NCBI GenBank assembly: GCA_003265685.1
Contig: QJOU01000083.1
Span: forward strand, 1 to 43,365
Reading direction: 5' to 3'
Length of the DNA stretch: 43,365 nucleotides
Origin: Piscinibacter caeni
GTDB lineage: Bacteria; Pseudomonadota; Gammaproteobacteria; Burkholderiales; Burkholderiaceae_C
Shown here: positions 25,883 through 40,676 of the stretch, in pieces
Layout: each line of letters starts with the position of its first letter
Position numbering within the stretch: the stretch's first letter is position 1
Notes under the pieces: model-generated
The model's database searches: none
What the model was told of the DNA's origin: nothing
The model's input: only the letters and a program-made list of their open reading frames with translations
Position numbers and translations under genes: made by a program

Positions 25883-25900
25883 CCTGGCCCACCCCCGGAG

Positions 25901-25978
25901 CGCCTGCGGCGCCCCCCTCGAGGGGGCGCCGCAGGCGGACCGGCGGAGCCGGATCCACGGCGGCCGCTGGACAGCGGC
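25901..25978. repeat. Perfect 16-bp palindrome and two smaller hairpins downstream of phoX
   Basis: A 16-bp perfect stem (25901-25916 with 25922-25937, arm beginning CGCCTGCGGCGCCCCC, loop CTCGA) is followed by CCGGC-GGA-GCCGG (25940-25952) and GCCGCTG-GA-CAGCGGC (25963-25978). No T-tract follows, so it is not a canonical intrinsic terminator, although it sits between the convergent phoX and lipoprotein genes and could stop transcription or protect 3' ends from both sides. Its form suggests a dispersed intergenic repeat of the kind common in Burkholderiales. Confidence 0.6.
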
Positions 25979-36240: not shown

Positions 36241-38346
36241 ATGAACGAGCTGGCTCCCCCGTCCGGGGCCGAGACGGGCGCCGAGCCTGCCTCGGTGCCC
36301 GAGCTGCCGCGGCTGCTGAACCGCGAGCGCGCCATCCTCGCGTTCAACCGCCGCGTGCTGGCGCAGGCGCAGCGCGCCGACGTGCCGCTGCTCGAGCGGC
36401 TGCGCTACGTGTGCATCGTCTCGTCCAACATGGACGAGTTCTTCGAGGTGCGCTTCGCCGACGTGCTGGAGGCGCACCGCGAGGGCGGCGCGGGGGTCTC
36501 GACGCGCGACCTGCAGTCGGTGGCCGTCGAGGCGCACCGGCTCATCGACGACCAGTACGCGGTCTTCAACGACGAGGTGATGCCGGCGCTGCAGCGCGCG
36601 GGCATCGTGATCCTCAACCACGCCGACCGCGACGCGGCTCAGCGGCGCTGGGTGGACGACTTCTTCCAGCGCCAGGTGCGGCCGCTGCTGGTGCCGATCG
36701 GGCTCGACCCCTCGCACCCGTTCCCGATGGTGGCCAACAAGTCGCTCAACTTCATCGCCCGGCTGTCGGGGCGCGATGCATTCGGGCGCGCCAACGGCAT
36801 CGCCATCGTCAAGGTGCCGCGGGTGCTGCCGCGTGTGATCCGCCTGCCCGACGCGCTGGCACCGGGGCAGCAGGCCTTCGTGCTGCTGACCAGCGTGATC
36901 CGCGCCCACCTGGGCGAGCTGTTCCCGGGCCGCGAGGTCGAGACCTTCTCGCAGTTCCGCGTCACGCGCGACTCCGACCTGGACGTCGACGAGGACGACG
37001 TCACCAACCTGCGCCAGGCGCTGCGCACCGGGTTGACGACGCGCCACTTCGGCCAGGCGCTGCGCCTGGAGGTGGTGAAGAGCTGCCCGCCCGAGCTGTA
37101 CGAGTTCCTGCTGCAGCAGTTCGACCTGCCCGAGGCGGCGCTCTACAAGGTCAACGGCCCGGTCAACCTGGTGCGGCTGAACCAGCTGATCGAGCAGGCG
37201 GACGAGTCGGCCGCGTCGGTGGCGCTGCGCTTCCCGGCGCACGAGCCGGCCTGGCCGCACGCGGCGCTGCCGCGCGAGGGCTCGATCTTCGCGGCGCTGC
37301 GCGAGCGCGACGTGCTGCTGCACCACCCGTTCGAGAGCTTCGAGCCGGTGGTGCAGTTCCTGCGCGAGGCGGTGTCCGACCCCGACGTGCTGGCGATCAA
37401 GCAGACCATCTACCGCACCGGCAGCGAGAGCCCGCTGATGGAGGCGCTGATCGAGGCGGCGCGGCGCGGCAAGGAGGTGATGGCGGTCGTCGAGCTGAAG
37501 GCGCGCTTCGACGAGGAGGCCAACATCAACTGGGCCGAGCGGCTGGAGGCCGTCGGCGCGCAGGTGGTCTACGGCATCGTCGGCCTGAAGACCCATGCCA
37601 AGCTGCTGCTGGTGACGCGCCGCGAGGGCGCGCAGCTGCGCCGCTATGCGCACCTGTCGACCGGCAACTACAACCCCAAGACCGCGCGCCTGTACACCGA
37701 CGTCGGCTACTTCACCGCCGACCCCGACCTGACCGGCGACGCCGAGGCCGTGTTCCAGCAGCTCGCCAGCCAGACCCGCACGCGCCCGATGCGGGCCGTC
37801 CTGCAGGCGCCGTTCACGCTGCACCGGCGCATCGGCCAGCTGATCGAGCGGGTCGGCGCGGCGGCGCGTGCCGGGCGGCCGGCACGCATCGTCGCCAAGG
37901 TGAACGCGCTGACCGACCTGCAGCTGATCGAGAAGCTGGTGCGCGCGTCGCAGGACGGCGCGAGCATCGACCTGATCGTGCGCGGCGCCTGCCAGTTGCC
38001 GCCCGGCCTGCCCGGCGCGACCGAGCGCATCCGCGTCCGCTCGGTGGTCGGCCGTTTCCTCGAGCACACCCGCGTGCTCTACTTCCGCTGGGGCGAGCGC
38101 GAGGAGGACGAGGTGCTGTACCTGTCGAGCGCGGACTGGATGAGCCGCAACATGTTCCGCCGCATCGAGATCGCCTGGCCGGTGCGCGACGCCGCGCTGC
38201 GCCAGCGCGTGATCGACGAATGCCTGGTGCCCTACCTGCACGACCGGCTGGACGCCTGGACGCTGCTGCCCGACGGCCGCTACGAGCGCGCCGGCAGCGA
38301 GGGCCCGGGCGCGCAGCAGGCGCTGCTGCAGCGCTACGCGGGTTGA
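36241..38346 (+). CDS. ppk: Polyphosphate kinase 1
   Basis: A 701-residue PPK1 that reversibly polymerises the gamma-phosphate of ATP into polyphosphate. The N-domain has 'LLNRERAILAFNRRVLAQAQ' and 'SSNMDEFFEVRFADV'. The head domain follows, then the two catalytic C-domains: 'LHHPFESF', 'IKQTIYRTGSESPLMEAL', 'RFDEEANINWAERLE', 'GLKTHAKLLLV' with His452 (equivalent to the autophosphorylated His435 of E. coli), 'YAHLSTGNYN' with His471, and 'FLEHTRVLYF' with His609 (E. coli His592). The first 25 residues are not conserved; ATG 36241 has no Shine-Dalgarno, so either the mRNA is leaderless or translation starts at a downstream codon such as the in-frame GTG near residue 19. Two bases separate it from sixA. 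Confidence 0.96.
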   Translation: MNELAPPSGAETGAEPASVPELPRLLNRERAILAFNRRVLAQAQRADVPLLERLRYVCIVSSNMDEFFEVRFADVLEAHREGGAGVSTRDLQSVAVEAHRLIDDQYAVFNDEVMPALQRAGIVILNHADRDAAQRRWVDDFFQRQVRPLLVPIGLDPSHPFPMVANKSLNFIARLSGRDAFGRANGIAIVKVPRVLPRVIRLPDALAPGQQAFVLLTSVIRAHLGELFPGREVETFSQFRVTRDSDLDVDEDDVTNLRQALRTGLTTRHFGQALRLEVVKSCPPELYEFLLQQFDLPEAALYKVNGPVNLVRLNQLIEQADESAASVALRFPAHEPAWPHAALPREGSIFAALRERDVLLHHPFESFEPVVQFLREAVSDPDVLAIKQTIYRTGSESPLMEALIEAARRGKEVMAVVELKARFDEEANINWAERLEAVGAQVVYGIVGLKTHAKLLLVTRREGAQLRRYAHLSTGNYNPKTARLYTDVGYFTADPDLTGDAEAVFQQLASQTRTRPMRAVLQAPFTLHRRIGQLIERVGAAARAGRPARIVAKVNALTDLQLIEKLVRASQDGASIDLIVRGACQLPPGLPGATERIRVRSVVGRFLEHTRVLYFRWGEREEDEVLYLSSADWMSRNMFRRIEIAWPVRDAALRQRVIDECLVPYLHDRLDAWTLLPDGRYERAGSEGPGAQQALLQRYAG

Positions 38347-38348
38347 CC

Positions 38349-38807
38349 ATGGACCTGATCCTCTGGCGCCATGCCGAAGCCGTCGAGCGCGAGGGCGTCG
38401 ACGACCTGAAGCGCGCGCTGACGCCCAAGGGCGAGCGCCAGGCGCAGAAGATGGCCGACTGGCTGAATCACCGCCTGGCCCATTCGACGCGTGTGCTGGT
38501 CAGCCCGGCGCTGCGCTGTCAGCAGACCGCCAAGGCGCTCGGCCGCTCGTTCAAGACGCTCGAAGCGCTGGCCCCGGACGCGTCGCCCGAGGCGTTGCTG
38601 AAGGCCGCGCGCTGGCCCGACGCGAACGAGCCGGTACTGCTGGTCGGCCACCAGCCCACGCTCGGCCAGCTGGCGGCGCAACTGCTGGCCGGCCAGGCGC
38701 TGCCCTGGGCGGTGAAGAAGGGCGCGGTCTGGTGGCTGCGCAACCGCGACCGCGAGGGCGCCGCGCCGGTGGTGCTGCAGGCGGTGATGGCGCCGGACTG
38801 CCTGTAG
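38349..38807 (+). CDS. sixA: Phosphohistidine phosphatase SixA
   Basis: A 152-residue histidine-phosphatase-superfamily protein. The RHG-type motif is at the N-terminus (ILWRHAEA, catalytic His8), with 'TPKGERQAQKMADWL', 'VSPALRCQQTAKAL' and the second catalytic His in 'VLLVGHQPTLGQL'. SixA dephosphorylates phosphohistidine, for instance on NPr or HPt domains. The gene starts 2 nt after ppk, so it is almost certainly co-expressed with it; the ppk neighbour, which forms a phosphohistidine intermediate, makes a link to phosphate metabolism plausible but unproven. Its stop codon touches the first bases of the nested inverted-repeat element. Confidence 0.92.
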   Translation: MDLILWRHAEAVEREGVDDLKRALTPKGERQAQKMADWLNHRLAHSTRVLVSPALRCQQTAKALGRSFKTLEALAPDASPEALLKAARWPDANEPVLLVGHQPTLGQLAAQLLAGQALPWAVKKGAVWWLRNRDREGAAPVVLQAVMAPDCL

Positions 38808-39075
38808 GAGCCTGCGCGGCAGAAACCCGGGCCCGCGCCGGGCGGCCAAGGCCGCTGGCGTAGGCGCGACGTGCGGCGCGGGCTGGACGCCCGCGCAAGC
38901 GGCGCAACACCCGCCAGTGGCCTTGGGTGACCCGGCCCGAAGGGTTGAGCCCGCCAAGGGGCGCATGCGTCGTTGCACCCCTTGCCCGGGCGGCCAGCCC
39001 GGGCTGCAGGCTGCGCCTAGCCTGCGCCCCTTGGCGGGCTCAACGCGGGCCCGGGTTTCTGCCGCGCAGGCTCCT
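38806..39075. repeat. 270-bp element of nested perfect inverted repeats
   Basis: Outer arms of 32 bp (38806-38837 and 39044-39075) are perfect reverse complements, the left arm starting AGGAGCCTGCGCGGCAGAAA. Inside are two further arms. Arm 1 pairs CCGGG (38838-38842) with CCCGG (38931-38935) and a 15-bp stem 38846-38860 with 38912-38926 (one G-T), enclosing GCGCGGGC-TGGAC-GCCCGCGC (38876-38896). Arm 2 is a perfect 22-bp repeat (38944-38965 with 39023-39044) enclosing GCCCGGGC-GGCCA-GCCCGGGC (38984-39004). The fold is a four-way-junction-like cloverleaf with three main stems. It fills the gap between convergent sixA and ppx, encodes no gene, and has no evident target duplication at its ends. 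It may be a MITE-like or REP-derived repeat, or a bidirectional transcription stop. Confidence 0.85.
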
Positions 39076-39095
39076 GGAGGAGCGCGCGCGGCGCC

Positions 39096-40619
39096 TCAGC
39101 CGCGCAGCGTCAGCTTCAGCACGCCGCCGCGTGTCCAGGCCTCGGCCTCCTCCTGGAGCAGGTACAGCGTGCGCGGATGCGTGGCGGCCCAGTCGGCGCC
39201 GAAGTCCAGCCGCGCGACGCTGCCCTGGCGGCGCAGCGACAGCGCGTCGGTGCGCACCTCGCCGCGCGCGTGGCACTTGATGATCGCCAGCCGCAGGCAC
39301 AGCACCTGCCAGGCGAAGGCCTCCTGCGTCAGCGCGGCCTCGATCTTGCGCAGCCCGCCGCGCTGGCCCAGCACCAGCTCGGCCACGCGGCGCTGCTGGC
39401 TCTGCGAGAAGCCGGGCGCGTCGACATGGCCCAGCAGGTAGGCGCTGTGGCGGTGGTGGTCGTGGTGCGAGACCATCATGCCCATCTCGTGCAGCGCGCA
39501 GGCCCACAGCAACTCGCGGCGCGCCTCGGGTGCCGCCTTGGGCCCGATCTGCTCGTACAGCGCCTCGGCCACCGAGGCGACGCGCCGCGCCTGGTCGGTG
39601 TCGACCATGAAGCGGCGCTGCAGCTCGCGCACCGAGGCATCGCGGATGTCGTGGCCGTCCTGCTCGAGCGCGGCCGCGTGCAGGCGCTCGTCGAGGTCGA
39701 AGATCACGCCCTGGCGCAGCGCGCCGCGCGCCGGCTGCAGCGACTCGATGCCGAAGTGCGCCGCCAGCGTGTAGAGGATGGCGATGCCGCCGGCGATCAC
39801 CGCGCGGCGATCGTCCTTCAGGCCGGGCAGCGACAGGCGATCGACGCGCCCGGCCTGCAGGCAGCGCTCCATCAGCCAGCGCAGGCCGTCGGGCGTGATG
39901 CGGCCGTCGGTGATGCCGCTGGCGGCCAGCAGCTGCGACACCGCGCCGACCGTGCCCGAGGAGCCCAGCGCCTCCTCCCAGTGCACCGCGGCGAACGGCT
40001 CGAGCGCTTCTTCCAGCTCGGCGCCGGCGGCCACCTGCGCGGCGCGGAAGGCCTGCTCGGTGAGCCGGCCTTCGCCGAAGTAGCGCATCGACAGGCTGAC
40101 GCTGCCGACGCGGAAGGACTCGGCGCGCAGCGGCTTGCGGCCGTGGCCGAGGATCATCTCGGTGGAGCGCCCGCCGATGTCGATCACCAGGCGCGGCAGG
40201 CTGGAGGGCTGCAGGCGCGCCACGCCGGCGTAGATCAGGCGCGCCTCCTCGCGGCCGGAGATCACCTCGATCGGCTGGCCCAGCACGGTCTGCGCGCGCG
40301 CCAGGAAGGCGTCGCGGTTGCGCGCCTCGCGCAGCGTCTGCGTGGCCACGGCGCGCACCTGCCCGGGCGCGAAGCCCTTCAGGCGCTGCGCGAAGCGCGC
40401 CAGGCAGGCCAGCCCGCGCAGCGCGGCTTCCTCGGTGAGCAGGCCGTTGGCATCGAGCCCGGCGCCCAGGCGCACGGTCTCCTTCAGGTAGTCGACGCGC
40501 CGGTAGCGGCCGTGCGGCACCTGCGCGATCTCGAGCCGGAAGCTGTTCGAGCCCATGTCGATCGCGGCGAGCTGGCCGGGCCAGCGGGTCTCTTGCAGGG
40601 GCGTCGGCACCGGGCTCAT
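39096..40619 (-). CDS. ppx: Exopolyphosphatase (Ppx/GppA family)
   Basis: A 507-residue member of the Ppx/GppA family (actin-like ATPase fold) that removes terminal phosphate from polyphosphate or converts pppGpp to ppGpp. Motifs: 'LAAIDMGSNSFRLEIAQV' (phosphate 1 loop), 'AVATQTLREARN', 'EVISGREEARLIY', 'LVIDIGGRSTEMIL' (phosphate 2 loop) and 'GSSGTVGAVSQLL'. The C-terminal region (about 310-507) is HD-domain-like, with 'LLWACALHEMGMMVSHHDHH'. Being paired with ppk it is more likely Ppx than GppA. The start at 40619 gives MSPVPTP; a start at 40643 adds eight non-conserved residues. CACAAT lies 6 nt upstream and no Shine-Dalgarno is seen. Confidence 0.92.
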   Translation of the reverse strand: MSPVPTPLQETRWPGQLAAIDMGSNSFRLEIAQVPHGRYRRVDYLKETVRLGAGLDANGLLTEEAALRGLACLARFAQRLKGFAPGQVRAVATQTLREARNRDAFLARAQTVLGQPIEVISGREEARLIYAGVARLQPSSLPRLVIDIGGRSTEMILGHGRKPLRAESFRVGSVSLSMRYFGEGRLTEQAFRAAQVAAGAELEEALEPFAAVHWEEALGSSGTVGAVSQLLAASGITDGRITPDGLRWLMERCLQAGRVDRLSLPGLKDDRRAVIAGGIAILYTLAAHFGIESLQPARGALRQGVIFDLDERLHAAALEQDGHDIRDASVRELQRRFMVDTDQARRVASVAEALYEQIGPKAAPEARRELLWACALHEMGMMVSHHDHHRHSAYLLGHVDAPGFSQSQQRRVAELVLGQRGGLRKIEAALTQEAFAWQVLCLRLAIIKCHARGEVRTDALSLRRQGSVARLDFGADWAATHPRTLYLLQEEAEAWTRGGVLKLTLRG

Positions 40620-40625
40620 GCAGCG

Positions 40626-40676
40626 ATTGTGGGGGCAAACCACACGCCGGCCGGGGTTGCGGCGCGTTCCTAGAAT
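40626..40676. promoter_or_regulatory. Divergent promoter elements between ppx and the dienelactone hydrolase gene
   Basis: Within the 89-bp gap, the minus strand has CACAAT (40626-40631) ending 6 nt before the ppx ATG, and the plus strand has TAGAAT (40671-40676), 32 nt before the hydrolase ATG, which does have a GGAG ribosome site. Neither has a recognisable -35 TTGACA-like hexamer. Confidence 0.4.

Follow-up and report, generated by a model that had tools for sequence, protein, structure and literature searches.

The 268-bp element lying between sixA and ppx in Piscinibacter caeni is, with a probability that we put at roughly 85%, a non-autonomous, IS5-linked MITE of a superfamily of folded elements. 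Its ~30-bp inverted ends would act as the transposition signal, and an IS5-family transposase would most likely move it in trans, by analogy with subfamilies bearing other ends, which share these with a resident IS5-family insertion sequence (IS). The element was studied in a stretch of 43,365 nucleotides (contig QJOU01000083.1 of assembly GCA_003265685.1, positions 1 to 43,365), hereafter called the window, and its features are listed in Table 1.

A preliminary description of the window had reported nested perfect inverted repeats between the two genes at 38806-39075, and this was borne out in detail. The outer arms (38806-38837 and 39044-39075) match each other perfectly as reverse complements over 32 bp, the 22-bp inner arm (GTTGAGCCCGCCAAGGGGCGCA and TGCGCCCCTTGGCGGGCTCAAC) is perfect, the 15-bp arm (38846-38860 with 38912-38926) is fully paired, including one G-T, and an 8-bp hairpin with a 5-nt loop is present inside each arm. 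The layout of nested arms could be refined to two arms of ~100 nt with a 7-nt mini-hairpin between them; the nested repeats are where they had been placed, but homologues and empty sites set the limits of the element proper and of its target TA as given in Table 1. Both strands fold strongly, with -246 kcal/mol for the plus strand, compared with -167 (sd 5.3) in 200 dinucleotide shuffles (z = -14.9), and -243 kcal/mol for the minus strand (z = -14.3). Perfect 16-mer inverted repeats at most 300 bp apart number 25 in the window, all at the element except one cluster near 25900; in Markov-1 simulated windows there were none in 19 of 20 and two in the remaining one. The inverted repeats of the element are far above chance. 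Open reading frames crossing it are mechanical, and none was accepted as a gene. A second strong palindrome, consisting of CGCCTGCGGCGCCCCC and its exact reverse complement with a 5-nt loop, is located at 25901-25937 of the window.

Table 1. Coordinates of the element, its parts and the neighbouring genes in the window
Feature	Position	Strand	Remarks
sixA (phosphohistidine phosphatase), 152 aa	38349..38807	+	TIGR00249 75.6 bits, cut-off 74.5; ORF end
left target TA	38805..38806	.	right counterpart 39075-39076 reads TG, decayed
mobile element (MITE)	38807-39074	.	268 bp, no own gene proposed; copies and unfilled sites
left terminal inverted repeat / outer stem, 5' strand	38807..38836	+	pairs with 39045-39074
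arm 1, 100-nt hairpin	38837..38936	+ (box orientation)	match of model R1
box A AGGCGC, arm 1	38862..38867	+	invariant in 23 dereplicated arms
box B GCAAC, arm 1	38904..38908	+	all bases but the second A invariant in 23 arms, that A in at least 90%
mini-hairpin CCGAAGG, inter-arm	38937..38943	.	7-nt gap as in most distinct arm pairs
arm 2, 101-nt hairpin, inverted relative to arm 1	38944..39044	-	103.7 bits, top R1 match of own genome
box B GCAAC, arm 2	38972..38976	-	from minus-strand sequence
box A AGGCGC, arm 2	39013..39018	-	from minus-strand sequence
right terminal inverted repeat / outer stem, 3' strand	39045..39074	-	inverted-repeat search
ppx (exopolyphosphatase)	39096..40643	-	Ppx-GppA domains; TIGR03706 307.5 bits, cut-off 307

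In the window's own genome (G000; 6.87 Mb, 310 contigs) a DNA search returned four further full copies at 96-97% identity and several diverged ones, and two full copies at 93% were found in the relative G004. Folding part of the fetched loci allowed 25 elements to be parsed, after one false parse was dropped; their 49 arms, a 130-nt arm being left out, were dereplicated to 23 and aligned to build a one-arm covariance model, R1. With 150 of 21057 candidates scored, R1 gave at least 45 matches at E ≤ 1 in the own genome, corresponding to 22 inverted pairs and one weak single match, so that the element is no one-off duplication-inversion and is present there in at least 22 two-arm copies. These follow one layout, with an outer stem (~30 bp), an arm (~100), a 7-nt mini-hairpin, an inverted arm (~100) and the other strand of the outer stem, for a total of ~269 bp. 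Outer pairing extends over 29-50 bp in all 22 copies, ~30 bp being common within subfamilies.

R1 was also run locally on two sets of 41 and 78 loci (119 in all); for the larger set, the alignment contains the 150 best of 159 matches. As several loci cover overlapping stretches of a genome, distinct sequences were recounted, giving 89 arm pairs. The arms are inverted in 88 of them, the gap is 6-7 nt in 85 and the arm-to-arm span is 205-209 in 81; a gap of exactly 7 nt occurs in 69, in 67 of which the two outer pairs of the mini-hairpin form. Both boxes are present in 160 of 193 unique arms and in 119 of the 145 outside the parsed training set, counts that depend on detection because R1 itself favours the boxes. 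Where both occur, they are spaced by 41-42 nt in 147 of 160 arms. A 130-nt arm with ~30 extra nt within its core lies at positions 1405-1534 of L044 (G012:C3).

The joined flanks of 14 copies of the own genome were queried against seven relatives. Matches spanning the junction were obtained in G004 for nine of them (C84, C71, C14, C43, C90, C78, C13, C16 and C55, the last being the window copy), and the other five gave no match across the junction in that genome. Once the junctions were read, eight of the 14 sites proved to be unfilled in G004, that of the window copy included, and the C16 site was found to hold a remnant consisting of the right outer arm only. Target duplications are TGA for C90 and C13, TCA for C71 and C84, and TA for C43 and for C14, the left copy of the latter now reading GA; for C78, TGA is absent from the relative's present sequence. 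At the window's own site G004 reads CTGCCTCTAGCG and G002 CTGTCTGTAGGT, compared with CTGTA followed by the element in the window, and at the unfilled site of G002 the right flank continues only after ~15 additional bases. Because it has copies and empty sites, mostly with TA or TNA target duplications, we regard the window element as a MITE. A mobile, MITE-like element had been one of the initial suggestions, and it agrees with the copies, the empty sites and the compensatory changes described below.

Ends vary by subfamily (GGAGYCTGCGCGG, GAAGGTGTGAGAG, GAACCTGTGAACC, GGGCCTGTTNNC, GAGCTTGAGAGG, GAGCGTGTTTGCG and others), and two of these many end types, in two genomes, match the ends of an IS5-family IS. 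The first is GGGCCTGTTAACACTA of G053, which bounds an 827-bp IS at a contig end, where a partial second copy and an N adjoin. Two ORFs of this IS match IS5-family NF033580, with DUF4096 and DDE_Tnp_1; the second ORF scores 135 bits (cut-off 110), the first 101, below the cut-off. The second is TAGAACCCATTTCATAA, with 83 matches in the complete genome G330: 11 are unpaired, and the others form pairs that enclose 270-272 bp (22 pairs), 859 bp (11), 167 bp (one) or 53-54 bp (two). Three 859-bp units were fetched, and the one that was read, L254, contains two NF033580 ORFs, both above the cut-off. The 20 elements fetched from the 22 (271-272 bp) have a mean identity of 99%, with 93.5% for the lowest pair, and all 20 have TA at both edges, the search pattern itself containing TA.

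No IS bearing the window element's ends (GGAGYCTGCGCGGCAGAAACC, GGAG type) was found among 18 end matches in the own genome, of which ten are the ends of five full elements, two belong to the solo palindrome of C94, four are shorter solo palindromes, one is a lone end (C21) and one a probable chance match (C24). DUF4096 was detected in none of six genomes (G000, G004, G007, G012, G014 and G020). Since both an own-end IS and DUF4096 are absent from the searched G000, the IS5 link of the window's subfamily is by analogy, and on this analogy an IS5-type enzyme most likely moved that subfamily as well. Four 21-bp solo palindromes of the own end sequence lie at G000:C3:103847, C27:3179, C1:115041 and C42:36070, and three are flanked by TA at either end. 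They may be scars left when full elements were deleted, or mobile mini-forms. On the Azotobacter chroococcum plasmid NZ_CP066311.1 (L281, 1323-2742), an IS630-family transposase gene adjoins an element copy; judged by eye, the CTAG at the edge of the element seems to have been the target of this IS, whose ends are unlike those of the element.

A different origin had been suggested by the start TGTAGGAG, which recalls REP sequences and would make the element a REP/BIME-type repeat moved by a RAYT (Y1) transposase. Dispersed gene-end palindromes and paired hairpins are indeed common to REP/BIME, REPIN and the present elements, most of which lie at gene ends. However, the TAG in that start is the stop codon of sixA, and the own genome gave no match to the RAYT transposase model Y1_Tnp (PF01797), whereas five of 14 control genomes were positive. 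The target duplications, together with the termini of other subfamilies, which match IS5-family DDE transposons in two other genomes, also speak against it. REPs are 20-40 bp long with a GTAG or CGTC tag, the GTAG-tagged ones being linked to RAYTs, according to the accessible part of PMC3733652. We consider this origin hardly credible.

The window element would have entered a TA (CTAG-like) target at the stop codon of sixA, whose TAG (38805-38807) is composed of the target TA and the first G of the element. As target and first G keep the stop codon intact, the insertion was probably harmless. The gene ppx is convergent to sixA, with its stop codon ~20 bp from the element. Using a home-made codon-usage gene caller around the copies, we found 17 of the 22 own-genome copies in which the element edge, as we set it, shares 1-3 bp with a facing stop codon. 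A stricter reconstruction of the sites before insertion placed 13 of the 22 exactly on a stop codon, 3 in intergenic positions and 6 in positions scored as coding, some of which probably reflect one duplication that has since mutated. Of the non-coding TNA targets, 9 of 11 lie on a stop codon, compared with 44 of 173 non-coding background sites taken from the same loci (p = 1.5e-4); for YTAR targets the figure is 4 of 5, which is not significant against a background likewise taken from the same loci (p = 0.16). Selection against harm may suffice to explain the stop-codon bias, because a duplication at a stop codon leaves the gene intact.

The bias could also mean that the arms work as a bidirectional transcription terminator or insulator, or as a 3'-end RNA stabiliser, so that insertions at gene ends are tolerable or even useful to the host. 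The arms being inverted, polymerase coming from either neighbouring gene would meet an arm in the same orientation, and terminator-like effects were proposed for Pseudomonas fluorescens repeats by Silby et al. in the sections available of PMC2718517. The stop-codon placement by both counts would fit, as would the flanking genes, which form only one divergent pair among the 19 copies (of 22) with both neighbours called; yet 14 of these pairs are tandem and only 4 convergent. Neither strand contains a GC hairpin with a T run in 38300-39500 (0 found; shuffles 0.2), the G.T excess of an RNA is missing from the outer arm stem (see below), and TNA/TA targets with purifying selection also predict the stop placement. 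A terminator or stabiliser role is unlikely.

Other arrangements were seen around the copies. One stop codon carries a full GGAG-ended element in G004 (L019) and a solo GGGCC-ended palindrome in G000:C31 (L158), which may indicate an insertion hot spot or end replacement. In L043 (G007:C45), two different elements (1475-1747 and 2460-2727) lie ~700 bp apart around one gene, which we take by eye to resemble a flavodoxin-type quinone reductase. A tRNA gene (1721-1809) lies ~110 bp from the element copy in L013 (G000:C182).

The conservation of the fold was evaluated on two alignments. The RNAalifold consensus of the first (A1) has 31 pairs, 28 of them with two-sided changes; in the second (A2), made of loci outside the model, fitted to the model and including a few antisense rows, 29 of 31 pairs show such changes. 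The proportion of paired cells is 92.8% in A1 and 94.4% in A2, a level reached by none of 500 shuffles, slid controls giving 34-44%; one of five shuffle measures of A2, that of further pair types, is unexceptional, with 33 of 500 shuffles at its level or above. Compensatory changes, put forward at the outset as a feature to look for among the copies, are thus present, and template switching could also produce them. Stem positions change less than unpaired positions among close copies, with 1.8 versus 6.5% of positions in the GGAG group, 3.3 versus 5.1% in GAAGG, 1.0 versus 6.5% in GAACC and 0.4 versus 2.0% in G330 (L260 event included). The 11-copy GAAGG group contains 22 distinct compensated changes versus 26 single ones.

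L260 (G330:C1:572373-572844), one of the 20 fetched near-identical copies, differs from L264 solely by one 16-nt block, which turns the imperfect core of arm 1 into a perfect palindrome and yields a perfect 48-pair hairpin, L264 pairing 24 from the base. One template switch would make such a block. The perfect stems might therefore be a mutational by-product of hairpin template switching, in which case covariation would need no selection and the element would be an ordinary IS5 MITE; for quasipalindromes in E. coli such switching is established, as far as the accessible text of PMC7202029 goes. Because it also makes compensated changes, covariation in palindromic repeats is alone no proof of selected structure. 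Template switching nevertheless leaves unexplained the fixed lengths of arms and element and the survival of the mismatched boxes, which rewriting would erase and which persist in most arms outside the training set, with the dependence on R1 given above. The lower variation of stems than of unpaired bases among close copies likewise argues against this explanation, which we hold to be doubtful.

The G-T pair in the 15-bp arm had been taken as a hint of selection on RNA, which does not hold generally. First counts of G.T versus A.C were 24 versus 7 in A1 and 90 versus 17 in A2, and a Watson-Crick-only self-alignment reduced the difference to 101 versus 60 events. Over the 14 outermost bp of the arm stems, isolated mismatches comprise 31 G.T and 35 A.C; only stem positions 15-20 favour G.T (46 versus 10). 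RNA-level selection is not claimed here, since the G.T excess weakened on self-alignment and is absent in the outer stem. A structured RNA gene turned mobile would be in keeping with the strong covariation and the invariant boxes, but the wobble asymmetry is found only near the core and 38300-39500 has no promoter-like site. Moreover, the window gave no Rfam 15 family above its gathering threshold, and among 12 loci the one such match was the tRNA of L013, none being at the element. Such an RNA gene is improbable. Integron attC sites begin, on the 5' side, with RYYYAAC and finish with GTTRRRY on the 3' side; an attC site was considered and rejected, arm 2 having, by eye, GTTGAGC 5' and GCTCAAC 3', which is the opposite order.

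Several genomes also contain forms with one arm (~167 bp) or with none. Compared by eye, the sequence of a one-arm form in G020 fits a deletion between GAAGG repeats, and solo GGAG palindromes fit a deletion at GCAG. In G330 the 22 two-arm-sized elements compare with three arm-loss forms. Since two-arm copies far outnumber arm-loss forms despite repeated arm loss, we favour the view that the arms are needed for propagation, and the chances that both folded arms are required in cis for the element's own propagation appear to us about even.

Matches of R1 at E ≤ 0.001 were obtained, own genome included, in 101 of 150 genomes of the family, 118 of 300 of the order and 63 of 397 of the phylum, for which 90% completeness was required. 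These counts may be low because few candidates per genome were scored (27, 13 and 10, respectively), and some single-arm matches in distant genomes may be chance hairpins. Among 36 distant loci that were parsed, with partner positions partly guessed, the outer stem reaches at least 20 bp in 23 and does not in 13. Relatives of L206 are found at 74-80% identity on plasmids of Azotobacter (two), Pseudomonas and Halomonas; no gene is listed under these matches in a gene table that is incomplete, the Halomonas record having one feature. L010 had no match in plasmids or phages, L262 and L025 none in plasmids, and L280 none in phages, the phage search being limited to L010 and L280.

Correia/NEMIS, RUP, ERIC and QMITE-type bacterial MITEs are known as lineage-limited sequences, whereas the folded core described here spans several classes of one phylum. 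Like it, they are non-autonomous foldback elements (available part of PMC10969869). There is a resemblance to IS5-family MITEs and eukaryotic PIF/Harbinger MITEs, which are also short, geneless and multicopy, with TA or TNA duplications and, as in two genomes here, ends shared with an IS5-family transposon; Harbinger and IS5 have been placed in one tree, as reported in the accessible sections of PMC12730594. The present elements differ from IS5-family MITEs by a fixed ~270-bp three-stem architecture with internal boxes under many termini, other MITEs varying in length and core according to the part of PMC10969869 at hand. The closest published match in the openly readable literature is the work of Silby et al. 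2009 (PMC2718517) on the P. fluorescens intergenic repeats R0, R2, R6, R178 and R200, two families of which (R0, R2) have IS-matching ends. In the available sections of that paper these inverted-repeat intergenic elements are biased to gene tails and tail-to-tail positions, and R178 is 101 bp long with an internal inverted repeat. The gene-tail bias is shared with our elements, and R178, being of one-arm size, may by size and description be one arm of the folded superfamily; compared by description only, the P. fluorescens repeats differ in that the paper treats each family separately and gives them no fold in common.

No description of a folded MITE superfamily was found in the literature covered, subscription papers lying largely outside it, and the superfamily is apparently undescribed. 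In the usual view, a MITE arises by deletion from one IS and is short-lived. That a core constant in length and fold is found under unrelated termini in many genomes of a phylum suggests end-swapping and selection on the core. We tentatively propose, as a possibility short of even odds, that this core, with its pair of inverted 100-nt arms, its AGGCGC/GCAAC boxes and its CCC-NNN-GGG mini-hairpin, represents an old selfish module in itself instead of the deletion relic of one IS. It would persist across Pseudomonadota by repeatedly taking on resident IS5-type ends, and the arms, as single-stranded folds or cruciforms of the DNA, would recruit some conserved function of the host or of transposition. 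L260 represents a natural snapshot of template-switch rewriting and a warning for the use of covariation in palindromic repeats. What MITE interiors are for is a long-standing question, and G330, a single complete genome with 22 elements of two-arm size, 11 units of IS size and also forms that have lost arms, opens the function of such interiors to direct test.
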